A program made the translations under genes and the position numbers. Below, in pieces: positions 1,470 through 21,687 of a DNA stretch of 37,004 bases; within the stretch, counting starts at the first letter, position 1; every line of letters starts with the position of its first letter. The stretch comes from a virus: positions 1 to 37,004 of IMG/VR virus record IMGVR_UViG_3300047319_000913. One strand, given 5' to 3'. Under the pieces are notes generated by a model, which saw only the letters and a program-made list of their open reading frames with translations, was not told the origin of the DNA and did not search any database.

Positions 1470-4400
1470 ATGCCGGTCAACTTCGCGCTGACGCCTGAGC
1501 AAATGAATGGTGCTCAGGCGGATATTTGGGCACAGAAGGCCAATGCCGCCGTGGCCGACGCCTGGCAGGCGCAACAGGTGGCCAAGCTGCAGCCCATACC
1601 CGTGCCGCCATCGCCAGCCCTGGACACGCCCACCCCCAGTGACAGCCTCACCCAACCGATGCAGGCGGCACCGCAACCGGCCCCTTTAGTCGGCACCGTT
1701 CCAGAGGGCACGCCCAGTACTGACGCGTCCCAGCCTCCGCCTGTAGCGACCTCAGCCCCACCACCCGTCACCGCGCCGCTGGTCTTTCCGGGCGCGCCGC
1801 CACCGACGCAGCAGCCGATCGCGCCAGCGCCGCCGTCGACGCCCGACGAGACGATCAGCAACCCCTTCGGGGAAGCGTTCCGCCAGCTCCAGGGCATCAC
1901 CCAGCCGCAAGCGTCACCCCCACCGTCACCCCCACCGCCACCCACGCCCACCTGGTCGGCGCCCACGGGTAGCGACACCCTCACCAATCCCATCCAGACC
2001 CAACAGAATCAGGCCACTGGCGGCGATCTGGAAAGCATCGTGCGCGACAGTGCCGCTCGCTACGGCATTGATCCCGACACGGCCGTACGCGTGGCCATGT
2101 CTGAGGGCGGCCTGTCCGAAGGCGCGCGACCGGGCGACTCCGGCTCGAGCTTCGGACCGTTCCAGTTGCACTACGGCGACGTCGCTCCGGGCGGCAATGC
2201 CGTCAGCGGCCTGGGTGACGCGTTCACCGCGGCCACGGGCCTCGACGCCCGCGATCCCAACAACGCGGCTGCCGCCATCGACTACGCCCTCAGCAACGTG
2301 GCGAAATCCGGCTGGGGGCCATTCCACGGCGCGGCGCGCGTGGGCATCGGCCCTATGGATGGGATCGGCGGGCGACCGTCGAACCTGGCGCCCACGCCGT
2401 CCGACGCGTTGACCAACCCACTGGGCAGCGGGCCGGCTGCGAGAACCTCGCAGTTCGGCCTGGGGTTGAGCGCGCAGGCCGCGTACGCCGCGTGTGGCCC
2501 GGCCGCCGCGATCGCGTTCGCCAACACCTACGGCCGCTATCCCACGCCCAACGAAGCGATGCAGCTCGCCAGCAGCGTGGGCTGGTCCGCCGATTCGGGC
2601 ATGGCCGGCGTGTCGTCCGAACAGCAACTGCTCGGCAAGATGGGCATTCCCACCAAGCTCGAGTCGACGGTGGATTGGAACCACGTGGCCGCCGACGCGG
2701 CCAACGGCAACCCAGTGATTCTCGACACGCCAGGCCACTACTTCTACGTCAGCGGTGTCCGCCAGGGCCAGAACGGCCTCGAGTTCAACGTCGGCACCAG
2801 TGGCACCGATTTGCGCCAGGGCAGCCAGTGGATGAGCGCCGCCCAGATCGGTGGCGTGGGCATGGGCTCTGTGCGCGCGGCACTGTACGCCGACAACCCC
2901 ACCAGTGCCACGCCCAGCGTGGCCGCGCCAGCCCAGCCGTCCACACCGGGCCCTGCCCAGCAGGCATCCCAGTGGATGACCAAGGCCAACCTCGTGGCCG
3001 GCGTCACCCCCCAGACCGACGAGACCATCAGTAATCCGTTCGGCGAGGCGCTCCGCCAGGCGGGTGACATCGCGGGCGGCATTGGCCAGACCGTGGGGAA
3101 CGCGGCCAGTAGCGTCGGCTCAGCCGTCCACACTGCGCTGGGTCCGCAGCCACTGGCCGCCGCTCAGCAGCCTACACCGTCCGACACGTTGACGAATCCC
3201 ACCCTCAGCACGGTGCCGCCGGCTGATCGCAGCACGGTCCCGTCGATGCCTGGCGCCACGGAGGGACCAATCCCTCCAGGCATTCCCATCGTGAGCGGCG
3301 CCGGCAACCTGGCGGCCAACGCGATCAACACGGTCGGCGATGCGGTCAAGTCGAACATTCAGAACGACCCCAGCCTGCCCGCGGTGGCCTTGCGGGCGCT
3401 GGCGGGTGGCGAAAGCTCCACCGCGATTCAGCGCGACCTGATGGCCAAATATGGCACCTGGATTCCTGACGATCGGTTCACTCCCGAGGACCGCGAGCGA
3501 GCCGGCAACCTGGTCATGCTCATCGGCGGCATGGAACTGGGTGGTGGCAAAGAAGCCGTGGACGCGCTGGGCAACAAGATCGCCCCGCTCGAGGAGCAGG
3601 CCGCGCAGATGGCTGGCAGAACCCTCGAGAGCGGCGCCGGTCTGCTAGGGCTCGGCCGACCGGCGGCGTCTGCTCCGCTCTCGGAGCCCGCGCAGTATCT
3701 CCTGAATGAGGCAGGTGGGGATCTCACGACCGCGATCGACAACGCGGCCCAGCGACTCCAAACGACCGATCCTGGTGAGACCGCCCTCACCGCGCGGATC
3801 AGCCGCGCGCATGACGAACTGGTGCAGGCTCGGGACGCGGCGGGTGCGACCGGCGCCGTCCCAGCACCCCAGGCAGCCCCCGCACCCCCAGTTGAAGCCC
3901 AGGCCGCACCCCCCACGTCAGCGACCAATGCGCTCGACCACCTGGTGCCGCCAGGTGCGAAGGCATCGCCCGTCGAGCAAGTCCTCGACCGCGGGCTGAT
4001 CGTTCCACGTGAGACTGGCCCGGTCCAGATCCTGGGACCACGGGGTGAAGTGCTCAGCACGGTGGCCCGACAGGGTCAGGACGTGGGCATCGTGCGGTCA
4101 GCCGGTGTGGGCGCCGAGGTCGCTGCACCATCCGCTGCCACCGTGGCGCGTATGCCCAACATCGCCAAGCTGGCGCCAGAGATGCCCGAGGTGGCAGCGT
4201 CGCTGCAGCGCGTCGCCGAAGAGAACCCGCACCTCATGGACACTGCCACCCAGGGGCGGATCACCCATCAGCAACTCGTCGAAGACCTGGCCCCCAAACT
4301 GGGCATGACTGCCGCCGAGTTTGAGAAATCCCCGATCGGCAAGGCGTACAACCCCCAGGAGTTGCTGACGCTGCGTGCGGCGGTCGTCCAGAAGCAGGTG

Positions 4401-7106
4401 CAGGCCGCGAGGATGGCCGCGGATATCGCCGCTAAAGGTGGCGTCGAGGCGCTGACGCCGACGCAGAAGGCCGAGTACATCGCTCAGATTGTGGATGCCG
4501 CACGGCTGCAGGCGGTCGGTCGGGGCGCCGCGGCGACGGCTGGGCGGACGCTGAACCAGCAGAAAATCGTCATCAATCAGGAGATGGCCCAGGCCATCAC
4601 CGGCGGCAACGAGGCCCGCGCGGCCAAAGCGGCGGCGGATGCCGCGGAGGCACGCCTGGCTCGAGCGCAGAAGCTGGCCGCGAACAACACGCAACTGGCC
4701 ACCGAGAAGGCGAACGCGGTCAGAGCCGCACAACGGATCACCTCCGAGGCTCGTGCCGCTCGGCCCGCCACCACTCCTCAGACCAGCACGCTCCTGGACA
4801 AGATTGCGAAGGCGTACGACGACCTGGCCGCGTACCACGCCATGTCGATCGACGAGAAGGGCGCCGATCTGGCATCACGGGACGCCCAGCGCGTGGCTGC
4901 GGCGGCCAAACGGGCCGAGGCCCTGAAGAACACCAGTGCGCCCCAGGAATTGCTGGACGCGCTGAACAACGAGCTCGCCGCCGAACGTGGCTATTTCAAG
5001 ACGACGAAGGCGGCAGGCGACAGGACCGCCGCGGACGCTGCCAAGCGGCTCGAGGGGCTGAAGCAGGCCGGCGTGGACAAGCCCGGTGCGAGGAATGGGC
5101 CGGTGGCGTGGCTCGACGCGCAGGCCCAGAATGCTCGGCGGGACGCGAACCTGGCCAACCGGCGCAGCGCGGCAGCGTTCGATGCCCAGTCGCGGGTTGC
5201 CTCGCGCCAGACCGAGCAGGCAGGGCGGTTGCTCGAGAAGATGGGCGGGAAAGCCGTGACCGACGACGTGCTGAAACAGTTTGTCGCGGCGCAGCAGTCG
5301 GGCAATCCTCTGGCGGCGGCGAAGTTCCTGCAGAGCCTGCAGCACGTCGGCTGGTGGGACCGCATCAGCATGTTGCGCTACGCCAGCATGCTCAGCGCGA
5401 CCACCACGCACCTGACGAATGCCCTGGGCAACACCATCCAGGGCGGCCTGGACGTGGGCCTGAAGCCGCTGGCGGTCGGCATCGACGCGGCCCGTGCCGC
5501 GGCCACCGGTGGTCCGCGCACGCGCTACCTGGGCGAGATCGCGCCCCAGTTACGGGGTATGGCGGAAGGGGCCGTGCAGGGACTCGGCGAGGCCCTGACG
5601 ACACTGCGAACGGGGGTCAATCCCCAGAGCGCGGGCAAGCTCGAGAACGTGCGCGGCGGCTTTCAATCGGGCAGCAGCAAACTCGACGCGGCGGTGGAGA
5701 TGCCCCTGCGTGCGCTGGAGGCGTCGGACCTGGTCTTCAGGGGCGCCGCGCGTGGAGGCGCGACACGAGCGATCGTGGCCAGGCGTGCGATTCAGGAGGG
5801 CTACACGGGCCAGGCCCTGCGGACGCGCATGGACGAGATCATGCAGAACCTGCCCGAGTATCCGGCCATCATGGCCGAGGCAGACAAAACCGCCGCCCAC
5901 TCGGTCCTGCAGGAGCCGAATTCCCTGGCGTCTGCGTTCAGTTCCATCGGGCGCGGGCCTGGTCCGAAGAATATGGCGGCGCGCATCATCCGCGAGCTGG
6001 TGGTGCCCTTCACGAAGACGCCCGCGAACATCCTGGCCCAGGGGCTGGAGCTGTCGCCGGCGGGCGCCATCGACCTGTTGCAGCACATCAGAGCCGGTGA
6101 TACGGGCTCGGCGGCCGACTCGGGCGCTCGGGTGCTGTTCGGCTCGAGCGTGATAGCCGGCACCGCGGCGCTCGCGGCGCATGGCCTGGTCACCGGCGGG
6201 TATCCGGCCGATCCGAAAGAACGCGACACGCTGCCAACCGGCTGGCAGCCCTGGAGTCTCAAGATCCCCGACGGTCAGGGAAACTTCACCTATATCGACT
6301 TGAGCAAACTTGGCCCGCTTTCCATCCCGCTGGCCATCGGCGCGGTCGTTGGCCAGTCGCAGCAGGAAGGCTCAGTCTCGGACCCCACCCGATTGGCCGT
6401 GTCCCTCGGGAAATTCATGACGGATCAGACGTTCCTGCAGGGGCTCAACGCGGTGATGAACGCGGTACAGGATCCCAAGCGGTACAGCGAGAACGTCACC
6501 GAGCAACTGGCCACGTCGTTCGTGCCCTACGCCTCGTTTGCCCGGCAGATGACCCGAGCTCTGGGCCAGGCCGACCGGAACCCGAAAGGCGCGATTCAGG
6601 CGATCGAGGCGCTTATCCCAGGTGTAGCCGAGAACGTGCCGCGGCGGCAGAACGCGCTGGGTCAGGACATCCAGAGCGACCAGACCGGGGCGGGCGCGTT
6701 CATCTCCCCGTTGAAGTACAGCAGCTCCCAGCCCGAGCCGATCCTGAACGCGTTTCGGGATGTCGGCATGGGCATCCCCAGCGCGCCGACAGAGATCCGT
6801 GTCAAAAATCCGTTGACCAATAGTCTGAGCCCGCCGATGACGCTGACCGAAGCCGAAAAGAACACCTACCAGCAGAAGTTCGGCGAGTTGTTGCAACAGC
6901 GGCTCAACGCCCAGGTGAGCGATCCGAACTGGCAGCGGCGTACGCCAGAGGCGCGGAAAAAAGTGCTCGAGGTGCAGACGCAGGCGGCGCGCGATTACGC
7001 CGAGGCTCAGGTATACGCGGCGATGGCGCCGACGGACCGTCAGGCCAGGATGGCCGAGGGCCGTATCAGACTGCTGACGCCACCCAAAGCGTTACCGGCG
7101 GCTTAG
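1470..7106 (+). CDS. giant virion/DNA-ejection protein with lysozyme-like and C39-like peptidase domains
   Basis: This 1878-residue protein resembles the large polyvalent or internal virion proteins of tailed phages, which enter the cell with the DNA. The first 180 residues are a Pro/Ala-rich linker. Residues about 185-300 look like a transglycosylase/lysozyme fold (E212 in a MSEGG motif is the likely acid; SFGPFQLHYG follows). Residues about 325-475 look like a C39-type papain-fold peptidase (C342 in AACGPAAA, H423 in GHYFYVSG). Six copies of a short motif, (T/P)SDxLTNP or DETISNPFGEAxRQ, sit at residues 55, 124, 166, 309, 516 and 569, in the linkers around these domains. Long Ala-rich helices fill about 750-1250. 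After residue 1300 comes the THLTNALGN segment seen in such proteins, then PFTKTPANI near 1513 with a hydrophobic stretch. It starts 3 bases after its neighbour. The role in wall digestion and DNA transfer is inferred from domains and position. Confidence 0.85.
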   Translation: MPVNFALTPEQMNGAQADIWAQKANAAVADAWQAQQVAKLQPIPVPPSPALDTPTPSDSLTQPMQAAPQPAPLVGTVPEGTPSTDASQPPPVATSAPPPVTAPLVFPGAPPPTQQPIAPAPPSTPDETISNPFGEAFRQLQGITQPQASPPPSPPPPPTPTWSAPTGSDTLTNPIQTQQNQATGGDLESIVRDSAARYGIDPDTAVRVAMSEGGLSEGARPGDSGSSFGPFQLHYGDVAPGGNAVSGLGDAFTAATGLDARDPNNAAAAIDYALSNVAKSGWGPFHGAARVGIGPMDGIGGRPSNLAPTPSDALTNPLGSGPAARTSQFGLGLSAQAAYAACGPAAAIAFANTYGRYPTPNEAMQLASSVGWSADSGMAGVSSEQQLLGKMGIPTKLESTVDWNHVAADAANGNPVILDTPGHYFYVSGVRQGQNGLEFNVGTSGTDLRQGSQWMSAAQIGGVGMGSVRAALYADNPTSATPSVAAPAQPSTPGPAQQASQWMTKANLVAGVTPQTDETISNPFGEALRQAGDIAGGIGQTVGNAASSVGSAVHTALGPQPLAAAQQPTPSDTLTNPTLSTVPPADRSTVPSMPGATEGPIPPGIPIVSGAGNLAANAINTVGDAVKSNIQNDPSLPAVALRALAGGESSTAIQRDLMAKYGTWIPDDRFTPEDRERAGNLVMLIGGMELGGGKEAVDALGNKIAPLEEQAAQMAGRTLESGAGLLGLGRPAASAPLSEPAQYLLNEAGGDLTTAIDNAAQRLQTTDPGETALTARISRAHDELVQARDAAGATGAVPAPQAAPAPPVEAQAAPPTSATNALDHLVPPGAKASPVEQVLDRGLIVPRETGPVQILGPRGEVLSTVARQGQDVGIVRSAGVGAEVAAPSAATVARMPNIAKLAPEMPEVAASLQRVAEENPHLMDTATQGRITHQQLVEDLAPKLGMTAAEFEKSPIGKAYNPQELLTLRAAVVQKQVQAARMAADIAAKGGVEALTPTQKAEYIAQIVDAARLQAVGRGAAATAGRTLNQQKIVINQEMAQAITGGNEARAAKAAADAAEARLARAQKLAANNTQLATEKANAVRAAQRITSEARAARPATTPQTSTLLDKIAKAYDDLAAYHAMSIDEKGADLASRDAQRVAAAAKRAEALKNTSAPQELLDALNNELAAERGYFKTTKAAGDRTAADAAKRLEGLKQAGVDKPGARNGPVAWLDAQAQNARRDANLANRRSAAAFDAQSRVASRQTEQAGRLLEKMGGKAVTDDVLKQFVAAQQSGNPLAAAKFLQSLQHVGWWDRISMLRYASMLSATTTHLTNALGNTIQGGLDVGLKPLAVGIDAARAAATGGPRTRYLGEIAPQLRGMAEGAVQGLGEALTTLRTGVNPQSAGKLENVRGGFQSGSSKLDAAVEMPLRALEASDLVFRGAARGGATRAIVARRAIQEGYTGQALRTRMDEIMQNLPEYPAIMAEADKTAAHSVLQEPNSLASAFSSIGRGPGPKNMAARIIRELVVPFTKTPANILAQGLELSPAGAIDLLQHIRAGDTGSAADSGARVLFGSSVIAGTAALAAHGLVTGGYPADPKERDTLPTGWQPWSLKIPDGQGNFTYIDLSKLGPLSIPLAIGAVVGQSQQEGSVSDPTRLAVSLGKFMTDQTFLQGLNAVMNAVQDPKRYSENVTEQLATSFVPYASFARQMTRALGQADRNPKGAIQAIEALIPGVAENVPRRQNALGQDIQSDQTGAGAFISPLKYSSSQPEPILNAFRDVGMGIPSAPTEIRVKNPLTNSLSPPMTLTEAEKNTYQQKFGELLQQRLNAQVSDPNWQRRTPEARKKVLEVQTQAARDYAEAQVYAAMAPTDRQARMAEGRIRLLTPPKALPAA

Positions 7107-7561: not shown

Positions 7562-8533
7562 GTGGCAGAACCTACCACGCAACCGTTGTTCCTTGGCGAC
7601 TCGCGGTACGAGGCCAAGTTCAAGGAGTGGAACCTCGAGCATCGGCTCGAGCTCGCGTTCCCCATCGACCAGCTCCGCGTCGCCGACTGGGCGCAGGTCC
7701 GCAGTTCCAATCACGTAGCGCCGCAAGATGAAGTCGAGGAGTATCGCCAGCAGATGGCTGCGGGCGCCGCATTCCCGCCTGTCATTCTGATGGCGCCAGA
7801 CACCTTGATCGACGGCAATACGCGACTTGGCGCGGCCAAGAAGCTGCACAAGAAAACCATCGCTGCGTATCTGATCGATTTCCCGAGCGTGCCGATGGCC
7901 AAGTCACTGGCGGCGGCCATCAACAACATGGGCGGCAAGCGGCTCTCGACAGAAGAGGCTGTCGATGCGGCGAAGTTGCTCATGGACATGCATTTCGCAG
8001 ACGAGGCGATCGCGCGAGAGATCGGCCGATCACCCGAGCAGGTACGGCGTATTCGCAACCAACTCGAGTTCGCCGACCGCACCAGAAAACTGCACCTGGA
8101 GGACGAGCGCGACCGGATCAGCATGGACAATCGTGCTCGCCTGAACTCGGTCAAGCACGACCCCGTCTTCGGGGAATTCGTCGAGTTCGTCTCACAGGCG
8201 GTCCCGGCCAAGAAGACCATCACCGACCTGCTCAAACAGGTCAACGCGGCACCATCAGACGCTGATGCGATCTCGGTGATCGAGCAGGCCAAGCGTGACT
8301 ACCGCCCGGCTGGGCCACCGCCGCGCGACCGCGAAGTCTCCATCTCCGGCACCGTGCGCCAGGTCGGGATGCACATCAGCGCACTCGTGAAGTTGAGTGC
8401 TGCACCGGAGGCGTTATTCGACCCGCGTGAGGACAAGCGCGAGGAGCGCATCCAGCAGTGGCAGGTGGTCGCCCAATTGAGCACCCGCATGCTCGAGCTC
8501 TACACGCCCGTAAGAGAACTCGTCACCGCGTGA
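7562..8533 (+). CDS. ParB-like nuclease-domain / DNA-binding protein
   Basis: The 323-residue product has a ParB N-terminal domain at about residues 25-120 (FPIDQLRVADW, then a region of variable loops and the DGNTRLGAA box at about 80-88). A helix-turn-helix middle region follows (STEEAVDAAKLLMDMHF, then AIAREIGRSPEQVRRIRN, about 120-165), typical of ParB/Spo0J and of phage ParB-like regulators. The C-terminal half is not recognised. The GTG start is preceded by AAGGAGA at a usable distance. No ParA is encoded anywhere in the window, so a full partition system is not supported; a regulatory or nuclease role, or use of a host ParA, remains open. It heads a two-gene cassette with its own promoter, inserted between virion genes. 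Confidence 0.85.
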   Translation: MAEPTTQPLFLGDSRYEAKFKEWNLEHRLELAFPIDQLRVADWAQVRSSNHVAPQDEVEEYRQQMAAGAAFPPVILMAPDTLIDGNTRLGAAKKLHKKTIAAYLIDFPSVPMAKSLAAAINNMGGKRLSTEEAVDAAKLLMDMHFADEAIAREIGRSPEQVRRIRNQLEFADRTRKLHLEDERDRISMDNRARLNSVKHDPVFGEFVEFVSQAVPAKKTITDLLKQVNAAPSDADAISVIEQAKRDYRPAGPPPRDREVSISGTVRQVGMHISALVKLSAAPEALFDPREDKREERIQQWQVVAQLSTRMLELYTPVRELVTA

Positions 8534-16421: not shown

Positions 16422-16820
16422 ATGAGCGTCAAAGTCACTTCATTCGACGATCCAACCGCCTGGGAATATGTTCACGATGACGCTCCCGGCGGCAGCCACG
16501 GCGGCACGCTCGATCCCGCCACGGTCACCTACGGCACGAACATCGACGGCACCGACAACCCCAATACAGTGGTGGTGCCGTGTCCGTTCGAGAACTGCGG
16601 CTCGGTGAGTTACTGGCCGCCAGGTGGTGGCGCCGACGCGCTGATGGGCCAGTCGCTGCACGTCATGGTGGCGATGCAGCCCGGCCTGGGGCGTTCGGCC
16701 AAGACCGCCGAGCAGGCCGCGGCCGAGGTCAAGCAGCGCGTGATCGACACCGACGGTGAGGAGCGCTGGGTCCTCGATGACGCTGCGCTAGCGCTCATGG
16801 AGGCGAGTGTGCATGGCTGA
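16422..16820 (+). CDS. hypothetical tail-region protein
   Basis: 132 residues; ATG 16422 follows the fibre stop by seven bases with GAGG upstream. The N-terminal half is rich in Gly and Asp, with PCPFENCGSVSYWPPGGG near residues 50-67, where CPFENC may bind a metal. The C-terminal half is helical (SAKTAEQAAAEVKQRVIDTDG, then DDAALALMEASVHG). It overlaps the next gene by eight bases. It probably belongs to the tail or lysis block by position. No family recognised. Confidence 0.7.
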   Translation: MSVKVTSFDDPTAWEYVHDDAPGGSHGGTLDPATVTYGTNIDGTDNPNTVVVPCPFENCGSVSYWPPGGGADALMGQSLHVMVAMQPGLGRSAKTAEQAAAEVKQRVIDTDGEERWVLDDAALALMEASVHG

Positions 16821-17482
16821 CTACAGCATCGGTCCAGGGGTCCAGCAGGCGATGGCCGACGCAGGTGACGAGCCTCGGTCGGACGAGCAGTTTGTGATCC
16901 TGACCGAGGGCGACAAGATCAGCCAGACCTTCGGCCGCGACCGGATCTACTACTGGATCGAGAGGGACAACATCGTCAGGACGTCCCCCTTTTGAGGCAC
17001 CCGAGTCACCGCCGGAGGCAGCCTGGGATGCGTGGACACCGCAGCCAGGCCAGTGGTACGACTGGACCTGTAGCGCCGCCGCCACCGAGTGGGTCGAGCG
17101 TGCCGTGGGGGCCGCCCGCAGTGGCGACGTCTACGCCAACCGCGAGGCGGTCACCTACGCGATCGGCTACCCCAATAACATCAGTCCGGCCCTGGGCCTG
17201 CACGATGGCAGCGGCACCCACCTGCAACGGGTGCTGCGCGAGCACGCCGGCCTGGAGACCGAGCAGGCGCGGTTCTCGTTCGACGAGGCCCACGCGTTCT
17301 ACAGCGCCGGCCTGGGCCTTGGCTCAGGCCAGGAGTACTACCACTGGGTGGCATTCCGGGGCGTGGCCGGCGCGAATCTTTGGATCAGCAATTCCGCGCC
17401 GGGGTACCGGGGGATCTACGACCAGTTGAGCCGCTACGACTATGACCGCCTCGGCGGCTGGAACCACCTCAGGGTGGTGTGA
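16813..17482 (+). CDS. C39-like cysteine-peptidase-like protein, two frames joined by a likely +1 frameshift
   Basis: The first frame (16813-16995) encodes 60 residues ending at TTT TGA. The +1 frame then stays open from 16994 to 17482 (162 codons) and is strongly coding from its first base, yet has no ATG, GTG or TTG before 17105. Joined, they give about 222 residues. The peptidase-like part starts at WYDWTCSAAATEW (C86 of the joined protein), with HWVAFRG (H177), NLWISNSAPG (N188) and a C-terminal RLGGWNHLRVV, a layout seen in C39-like or papain-fold phage and actinobacterial proteins. The only in-frame start, GTG 17105, lies downstream of the likely catalytic Cys, so independent translation would give a dead enzyme. 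It precedes the holin-like gene, so a wall or maturation role is possible. A one-base sequencing error in the C5T4 run is the main alternative. Confidence 0.7.
16985..16996 (+). promoter_or_regulatory. candidate +1 ribosomal frameshift site
   Basis: CCCCCTTTTGAG is read CCC TTT TGA in the incoming frame. A Phe tRNA on UUU (16990-16992) can slip one base forward to another UUU (16991-16993), placing GAG in the A site instead of the stop. This has the same logic as the CUU UGA site of prfB. The Pro codon CCC can also re-pair with CCU. AGGA lies about eight bases upstream of the slip codon as a possible stimulator. Confidence 0.55.
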
Positions 17483-17496
17483 GTGAAAGGAAAGCC

Positions 17497-17745
17497 GTGA
17501 GTCTTGTCTGTGGTGGGCGTGGGCCGTGTTGCCACGTCGGGTATGCGCATCGTCACTGTGAGCACTGCGATGTGGTGATCGCCACAACCTACGCGCCCTG
17601 GCCCCACTACTGGATAAATGGCTACGGGATATACGGCAGCGGCTGGTCGGGCATGCAGTCCACCGCACAGAGCCAGATCGGCAACAGTCTCCAGCAACTG
17701 TCCGCAGGACTGCACCGTCAGTCGGGGGAAGGAACAAGCCAATGA
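17497..17745 (+). CDS. small Cys/His-rich protein
   Basis: 82 residues from GTG 17497, chosen because AAAGGA lies six bases before it; an in-frame GTG 17479 overlapping the peptidase-like stop would add six residues. The N-terminus holds a dense metal-binding-like cluster (CGGRGPCCHVGYAHRHCEHC), then an aromatic stretch (YAPWPHYWINGYGIYGSGW) and a Gln/Ser-rich tail. The cluster suggests a zinc knuckle. It lies between the peptidase-like gene and the holin candidate. No family recognised. Confidence 0.65.
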   Translation: MSLVCGGRGPCCHVGYAHRHCEHCDVVIATTYAPWPHYWINGYGIYGSGWSGMQSTAQSQIGNSLQQLSAGLHRQSGEGTSQ

Positions 17746-17894
17746 ACATTGCGATGCCACCGATAACCGTGGGGTTAATCCTGGCGATCATCATTTTGAT
17801 CCTTGCCGTCATCGGCCTGGTCGGCGTGCTGCCGGTCAACCCGCTGATTATCTTCGGCTTGATCGGCGGCCTGGCCCTCGCGCGTCTCTTATAG
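17742..17894 (+). CDS. small hydrophobic membrane protein, holin candidate
   Basis: 50 residues almost entirely hydrophobic: two transmembrane helices (about 8-29, TVGLILAIIILILAVIGLVG, and 33-49, PLIIFGLIGGLALARLL) joined by a short turn. GGAAGGA lies upstream of the ATG at 17742, which overlaps the preceding gene by four bases. It is the last plus-strand gene of the late block, a common holin position. It is very short and lacks the usual charged tail, so a holin role is only plausible. It could act together with the cysteine-peptidase-like protein upstream or with the secreted transglycosylase at 24761. Confidence 0.65.
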   Translation: MNIAMPPITVGLILAIIILILAVIGLVGVLPVNPLIIFGLIGGLALARLL

Positions 17895-20706: not shown

Positions 20707-21633
20707 TTACAGTCCCCACCGTGCGCTGAGTGATGCCACCTCAGCGATTTCGCCGACGGTCCGATCTGACAGCGACACATAGTCGCTGAGCACTTCCCGC
20801 GACAACTGGCCGAGCCGTGACCGAAGCTGAATTTCGGCGCCCGGCCGCTGGGCTAAAAATTCGGAGGCGGCCGAGTGGCGCGTGCGGTGAGGATGGCTGT
20901 TGGGGACGCGGCCGGCCTGACCGAGCTCCGAGAAGATCTCGCGTACTCGGCGGGTCGACAGCGCCAGGCGTTCGCGTGTGGTGAACAGCGCGGTCACGCC
21001 CGCGCGGGCCTCGCGCACCTTGAGCCAGTTTCTCAAGGCCGAGAGTGCCGGCCCGCCGTCGCGGCGCGAGGGAACGCGGAAGGTGACCCGCCGCGGGCTG
21101 CCATTTTTGGTGCGCCTGAAAAGAATCGAGCCCTCGACCAGGTCGACGTCAGTGACCGCGGCGTTGCACAGCTCGCCGACACGACAGCCGGTATCGAGCA
21201 GCAGCAGCAGCAGGGCGCGATCGCGGATCGGGTTGGGACCGGCCGAGGCGGATTGCACCAGGCGGCGCGCCTCGTCTTCGGTGAAGGGCTTGCGGTGGAT
21301 TTTCTGGACACGGGGTACCTTGAGCCGACCGAGCGGGTCGAAGGCGAAGACGTCGTTGTCCCAGCACCAGCGTGCCCAGGTCTTGAGCGTCATCACGCCC
21401 TGTTTTTCCGTCACCAGGCCGCCACGGCGGCCGGTGGACTTGCCACGCAGCCATGATTGCCACTCGCGCACGAATTGTGGGTTGAGCGCGTCAAGCGACG
21501 GCGAGACCTCGTGCTCGGCCAGGAAGGCCAGATACGAATCCTGATACGTACGGTACAGCCGCAACGTGGCAGGCGACCGATTGAGTCGCTCGAGTGCGTC
21601 GCGGTGGAAGTCGGCAGCTTCGGCCAGATTCAT
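20707..21633 (-). CDS. int: tyrosine-recombinase integrase
   Basis: 308 residues from ATG 21633, chosen over ATG 21672 because GGGGG precedes it and 21672 lies inside the predicted promoter. The N-terminal SAM-like core-binding domain covers about 1-105 (RLYRTYQDSYLAFLAEHEV). The catalytic domain has R151 in DTGCRVGEL, K176 in RRTKNGSP, H249-x-x-R252 in HPHRTRH, and the nucleophile Y285 in LSDYV. The position usually held by His or Trp in LGH is Gln (LGQ, Q276), a departure from the consensus. It catalyses integration and excision at att sites. No attP core can be defined from the sequence alone. It is transcribed with the HNH gene on the minus strand. Confidence 0.9.
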   Translation of the reverse strand: MNLAEAADFHRDALERLNRSPATLRLYRTYQDSYLAFLAEHEVSPSLDALNPQFVREWQSWLRGKSTGRRGGLVTEKQGVMTLKTWARWCWDNDVFAFDPLGRLKVPRVQKIHRKPFTEDEARRLVQSASAGPNPIRDRALLLLLLDTGCRVGELCNAAVTDVDLVEGSILFRRTKNGSPRRVTFRVPSRRDGGPALSALRNWLKVREARAGVTALFTTRERLALSTRRVREIFSELGQAGRVPNSHPHRTRHSAASEFLAQRPGAEIQLRSRLGQLSREVLSDYVSLSDRTVGEIAEVASLSARWGL

Positions 21634-21658
21634 AGGAAAACCCCCGTTGAATCTGCCT

Positions 21659-21687
21659 AAAGTAGAACTCATGTTCTATACAGTCAA
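21659..21687 (-). promoter_or_regulatory. integrase promoter
   Basis: On the minus strand TTGACT (21687-21682) and TACTTT (21664-21659) are separated by exactly 17 bases, ending about 25 bases before the chosen integrase start. The spacer contains the dyad AGAAC-N4-GTTCT (21664-21677), a possible operator. Confidence 0.55.

Follow-up and report, generated by a model that had tools for sequence, protein, structure and literature searches.

The locus described here appears to be a phage endolysin gene that is decoded in two ways, as a short subunit consisting of an N-terminal domain alone and as a fusion of that domain to an enzyme, with the ratio of the two set by frameshifting. It lies in a 37,004-nt IMG/VR virus record, and "the window" refers to that whole stretch of DNA. 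We give this reading a probability of roughly 0.7; within it, sequence and comparison establish the slip site and its conservation, the repeated change of direction, the peptidase fold, the exchange of enzyme domains, the gene pairing in unbroken C-type relatives and the holin-like neighbor, and we infer the lytic action, the wall binding, the role of the short subunit, the assembly of the two forms and the efficiency of the slip. We lean slightly toward a broader proposal, namely that this is a two-subunit endolysin whose ratio is controlled via frameshifting, that a single orthologous slot has seen repeated flips of shift direction without losing either product, and that frameshifting is interchangeable with gene duplication. 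The sites used in this slot are UUU_UGA or UUU_CGN for +1 shifts and C_CCU_UUY or C_CCA_AAA for -1 shifts. The features of the locus in the window are given below, with the basis for each in parentheses.

16800..16804, + strand: Shine-Dalgarno-like GGAGG, 8 nt 5' of ATG 16813 (sequence)
16813..16995, + strand: ORF A, the 60-residue N-terminal domain and predicted short product (sequence, family alignment A6, pN/pS <1)
16987..16995, + strand: putative slip site CCC_UUU_UGA (conservation among relatives)
16994..17482, + strand: ORF B, in the +1 frame, interdomain linker plus predicted C39-like papain-fold cysteine peptidase (fold search with the model of relative L018)
17051..17053, + strand: Gln80 codon, predicted oxyanion-hole position (invariant in 93 relatives)
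17069..17071, + strand: Cys86 codon, predicted nucleophile (invariant in 93 aligned relatives)
17342..17344, + strand: His177 codon (invariant in 93 aligned relatives)
17390..17392, + strand: Asn193 codon, predicted third triad member, 16 residues past His177 (invariant in 93 relatives)
17742..17894, + strand: 50-residue hydrophobic holin-like protein, 3' of the peptidase (transmembrane ORF survey of relatives)
Joined A-B product: predicted peptide spanning the slip junction, ...TSPFEAPESPPEAAW...

ORF A comprises 60 codons from ATG 16813 and ends in ACG TCC CCC TTT TGA (UGA 16993-16995), and the +1 frame is open from 16994 to a TGA at 17480-17482 (162 codons). The original prediction held that the frame starting at 16813 ends at TTT TGA and that +1 coding sequence follows with no start before the catalytic Cys. 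This was confirmed in the sequence: third-position GC is 0.87 on both sides of the slip site, in frame 0 before it and in the +1 frame after it, and the earliest ATG, GTG or TTG in the +1 frame is GTG 17105, 3' of the Cys codon. Since no start codon lies ahead of that Cys, re-initiation was rejected for the window, and UGA read-through was rejected because the frame that is coding past the stop is the +1 frame. A small Cys/His-rich ORF (17479-17745) separates the peptidase of the window from the holin-like gene; some relatives lack it and have the membrane gene directly after the peptidase.

In the mechanism that we propose, most ribosomes would stop at the UGA and release the 60-residue N-terminal domain. 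On some ribosomes the Phe-tRNA would slip at CCC_UUU_UGA from UUU 16990-16992 to UUU 16991-16993, skipping one base, and translation would continue to yield a 222-residue fusion of A to the C39-like peptidase, the predicted length being that obtained by joining the frames; this fusion would cut the cell wall. The short protein would itself be a functional product, most likely a subunit that serves wall binding or oligomerization and joins the full-length enzyme, and the frameshift would fix the short:long ratio. By analogy with known two-polypeptide endolysins, the short and long forms probably hetero-oligomerize.

Relatives were collected by scanning viral contigs with each half of the gene and with alignments, and bacterial genomes were scanned as well. 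The resulting 120 loci, each with a distinct catalytic domain, were sorted by profiles for A (60 aa, the window type), C (66 aa, unrelated in sequence to A) and B (the peptidase), and an Amidase_2 profile was added later. Among 82 loci that joined A to B, 61 required a +1 shift, 12 a -1 shift and 9 were unbroken, and the two loci that joined A to an amidase were both -1. C was joined to B by a -1 shift in 9 loci and without a break in 18, and to an amidase in 4, all unbroken; 5/120 loci had neither A nor C. Of 20 viral records searched, 19 had a single copy of the A domain and one had two. A search of 50,697 phage records returned no relative, nor did the first scan of bacterial genome contigs, and the second such scan found one Chloroflexota locus. 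Neither half of the window gene matched a family in Pfam or PHROGs, nor did A match one in NCBIfam. Pfam lent no support to a suspected likeness of A to LGFP repeats, and the PDB sequence matches of A and C were short and chance-like. Since A and C both lack a recognized family, wall binding by these domains is a guess. In two loci, L169 and L179 (2694-3450), a third, unrelated N-domain stands ahead of the same peptidase; they were left uncounted as frameshifts, as their frames overlap, they carry no slip motif and the peptidase may start at TTG 2914.

The slip site of the +1 class was strongly conserved. The slip codon was TTT in 61/61 loci, compared with 62 of 359 Phe codons (17%) elsewhere in the same genes, and TTT makes up 22% of Phe codons in the window's main genes. 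In every one of the 61 loci this P-site codon could re-pair one base 3', from UUU to UUU or UUC, and a zero-frame stop followed 0-3 codons past it. The next codon was a slow one in the form of TGA in 36 loci, a putatively slow CGN in 22, and another C-starting codon (CCT, CCG or CTC) in 3. Ahead of a stop, UUU and CCC are reported to rank just behind CUU in slipperiness (PMC10885494). With the arrangement recurring in 61 distinct loci from many metagenomes, and with both the site and the flanking frames conserved, the proposal of a programmed +1 shift at UUU_UGA is supported. Of the TTTTGA motif, whose conservation had been proposed as a check, TTT was kept in 61/61 loci and TGA in 36/61. The likeness to prfB did not extend to its Shine-Dalgarno element: upstream of TTT, the last 12 nt in the +1 loci contain CCC and no AGGRGG at the prfB spacing, ~3 nt before the slip codon. 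Tuning at the level of release factors, as in prfB, is likewise unsupported, since many relatives carry CGN or UAA/UAG in place of UGA. Downstream RNA structure, which had been expected to explain the +1 class, was not conserved in these loci (mean z 0.02). Considering that the +1 sites have neither such a structure nor a prfB-like upstream element, the efficiency of the +1 shift could be very low.

In the A-type -1 loci the site was CCT TTY or GCT TTC, and the stop was the next or second codon in 14/14 (12 peptidase, 2 amidase). A slippery heptamer, C_CCU_UUY, was present in 7/14; the rest were G_GCU_UUC-like and would permit an A-site slip only. The codon before Phe tracked direction: 54/61 of the +1 loci had CCC, every unbroken locus had CCT, and the -1 loci had CCT in 7/14 and GCT in the other 7/14. 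In the C-type -1 loci the slippery heptamer was C_CCA_AAA, followed by one codon and then a stop, in 9/9. Downstream structure in the A-type -1 loci had a mean z of -1.75, a value driven by one 7-member clade, and the C-type -1 loci gave no downstream structure signal. The loci L086, L120, L121, L123, L129, L140 and L162 have a stem-loop ~5 nt past the -1 site (z about -2.2 to -2.9), with the L120 stem in a register that differs from that of the other six clade members. In the nine unbroken A-type loci the sequence is CCT TTT GAN or CCT TTC GGT GAN, and all nine keep CCCTTT[TC] with a -1-frame stop 0-1 codons on, so that a -1 slip on CCCUUUY would terminate at once. Unbroken homologues that lacked the motif had been named in advance as evidence against frameshifting; unbroken homologues do exist, but every one of them retains the motif.

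To place these states we used a tree of 100 peptidase domains, built by a quick method with SH-aLRT support only. The -1 A-type state required five changes on it, all forced by well-supported branches, and slip direction has flipped at least five times on this tree. Well-supported sister pairs of opposite direction were L006/L060, L083/L067 and L084/L089; the unbroken L015 group adjoined the +1 locus L038, and L070 (-1) grouped with the unbroken L039 and L087. Across 11 pairs of relatives, pN/pS was 0.03-0.53 in the first half and 0.13-0.34 in the second, indicating purifying selection on both. This pattern is not accounted for by sequencing error, by decay or by phase variation. A sequencing error or a decaying gene might be suspected from the short C5T4 run at the window's site, and is scarcely credible given that the 61 +1 loci are independent and many of them carry C3T3 runs only, that direction changes together with matched stops, and that both halves are under selection; the same recurrence in independent data excludes a run read with one base too many, which the original prediction had listed as a possible refutation. 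Phase variation at the DNA level, or transcriptional slippage in the run, would draw on the fact that one-base indels between relatives would yield the observed frames. We nevertheless regard it as very improbable: the runs are only 3-5 bases, too short for transcriptional slippage, a stop is kept beside the site in the frame of A (within 0-3 codons in 75/75 shifted A loci), and the slip codons obey the tRNA re-pairing rules for each direction.

To examine the enzyme, AlphaFold was run on the unbroken relative L018, which was translated plainly with table 11 and is 67% identical to the joined window protein. The model had a pLDDT of 89.7 and placed the junction in a flexible linker; the window protein folded alone gave a pLDDT of 35.8 and an unusable model. 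A fold search with the peptidase part only of the L018 model gave a best Z of 15.9, to the C39 peptidase 6mpz over 135 residues, and a Z of 14.3 to the pseudomurein endoisopeptidase PeiR. Neither the window protein nor 16 relatives had a Pfam C39 match at E 0.1. The residues of a Gln/Cys/His plus Asp/Asn active site are present: all 93 aligned relatives carry Q80, C86, H177 and N193. The product of about 222 residues foreseen for the joined frames retains C86 and H177 as predicted catalytic residues, and the third residue proposed, N188, is not invariant and gives way to N193. The catalytic pair of ComA is Cys17 and His96 (PMC10630487), and residue spacing suggests that the window Cys and His correspond to these. 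The fold search supports the assignment, made before, of a C39-like cysteine peptidase.

Several arrangements bear on whether the short product has a function. A separate C-only gene lay directly upstream in 21/21 testable unbroken C-enzyme genes and in 0/9 frameshifted ones (Fisher p = 7e-8, a value that ignores relatedness, the six frameshifted C loci on the tree forming one clade and the unbroken state occurring in at least four places, so that the contrast draws on few independent lineages). In L187 (G173:C283), from a Chloroflexota genome bin, C-only plus C-peptidase is followed by C-only plus C-amidase. This constant presence of a C-only gene beside the unbroken C-type genes indicates that the short N-domain protein itself may be needed, and what the first frame yields resembles a required product more than a failed one. 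A second A gene was found in only one of the four unbroken A-type lineages, so the short form in the other three would need -1 slipping; L005/L025 have this separate second A-domain gene (99 aa) ~770 nt upstream of A.

These data bear on the view that the frameshift is a brake only, which lowers or delays a toxic enzyme and leaves a short product without function. Low-efficiency UUU_CGN shifts are known in other viruses (PMC3498833) and late, low expression of a lysis enzyme is plausible. However, the consistent retention of the C-only gene, in one case next to both an amidase and a peptidase, and the purifying selection that still acts on A make this view decidedly unlikely. A further view, that A and A-B are virion proteins, with A a part of the tail or capsid and a few copies bearing a peptidase or amidase that opens the wall at infection, we also consider unlikely, if slightly less so. 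It gains from the position of the locus, which comes after the tail genes with a tail-fiber gene just before it, and from the fact that phages T3, SPP1 and the 936 lactococcal phages extend structural proteins by frameshifting (PMC5009743; PMC6669499). Against it stands the neighborhood on the other side: a small transmembrane ORF, a putative holin gene, lay within 700 nt downstream in 99/112 loci, compared with 0/98 upstream controls. The enzymes of the slot also point to lysis, in that Amidase_2, a cell-wall hydrolase domain, swaps in for the peptidase, whose own activity is predicted. In L235 and L243 the A domain is joined, through a -1 slip at CCT TTC, to Amidase_2 (PF01510, 3.6e-17 and 1.9e-15), and a holin-like gene of the same kind comes next; the C domain likewise carries Amidase_2 in L277-L280 and in the G173 contig. 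In Chloroflexota genomes, relatives of B are fused to SLT or GH19 plus SH3 domains in lysin-like proteins. Moreover, the short domain is only 60-66 aa long and matches no structural protein. We therefore retain the two-product endolysin as the preferred reading.

Other genes of the window encode an internal virion protein, a major head protein, a terminase and a DnaC-like protein. The large internal virion protein (1470-7106) matches Peptidase_C39_2 weakly over residues 336-434, with an E of 0.0013 that lies below cutoff, and a second C39-like enzyme may be carried in the virion; the phage may thus have another cell-wall enzyme, a point that counts against the preferred reading. A phage integrase is encoded at 20707-21672 on the minus strand (PF00589, 1.9e-24), which suggests a temperate lifestyle for a phage whose internal virion protein is T7-like, and a ParB-like partition protein match lies at 7562-8533 (PHROG 1033, 4.4e-10). 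Since one relative sits among chromosomal genes (P450, G6PD, MFS) of a Chloroflexota genome and 4 of the 400 Chloroflexota genomes searched had a match, the hosts, soil bacteria, are probably Chloroflexota; for the window's own host these data offer a tentative hint.

If the preferred reading is true, phages set the composition of a lysis enzyme by recoding, a route that we did not find in the literature searched. A single junction crossed by +1, -1 or no frameshift is a natural series, which makes it testable whether the direction of frameshifting is neutral and the product ratio selected. Gene finders miss such genes, and here they would list a 60-aa orphan and a truncated peptidase.

Endolysins of two polypeptides, phage proteins extended by frameshifting and a mixture of directions in the latter group are each already known separately; an endolysin made by frameshifting was not found in the open-access literature searched. 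In Lys170, LysIME-EF1, CTP1L, CD27L and LysP7951, a single gene encodes both the complete enzyme and a short non-catalytic form, and the endolysins of this kind that have been studied form hetero-oligomers of 1:3, 2:2 or 1:5 (PMC9430671, which does not mention frameshifting). The window locus resembles them in that one gene would yield both the complete enzyme and a short form made up of the shared non-catalytic domain. However, their short form is C-terminal and arises from an in-frame internal start, whereas that of the window is N-terminal, ends by ordinary termination at the first-frame stop and leaves the long form to be made by frameshifting. The catalytic domain shares a papain-like fold with the C39 peptidases (PCAT1, ComA) and PeiR, with Gln, Cys and His invariant in the window family, but the window enzyme differs from C39 peptidases in having no Pfam sequence match, no transporter and an Asn as third residue.

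With respect to the shift itself, prfB (CUU_UGA) and the tsh gene of a Listeria phage (CCC_UGA) share with this family a P-site tRNA that slips +1 with UGA in the A site, although here the slip codon is UUU, a Shine-Dalgarno at the prfB spacing is absent and CGN replaces the stop in many relatives. Influenza PA-X (UCC_UUU_CGU) is similar in that UUU is followed by a C-starting codon in 25 relatives (CGN in 22), and a preference for UUU_CGN has been reported for shifts of the PA-X type (PMC3498833); this family differs in being a bacteriophage gene and in having the stop 1-3 codons on. Among phage structural proteins (the Ig-like extensions of T3 and A2, the major tail proteins of SPP1 and the 936 phages, and lambda gpG-GT), +1, -1 or in-frame decoding adds a C-terminal domain to a minority of the copies, and the direction differs among phages (PMC5009743; PMC6669499). 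The window locus, by contrast, would attach a cell-wall enzyme with catalytic function to a domain of 60 residues, next to holin-like genes; direction differs inside a single orthologous slot in which the two domains stay conserved, and a duplicated short gene takes the place of the frameshift in the C-type loci.
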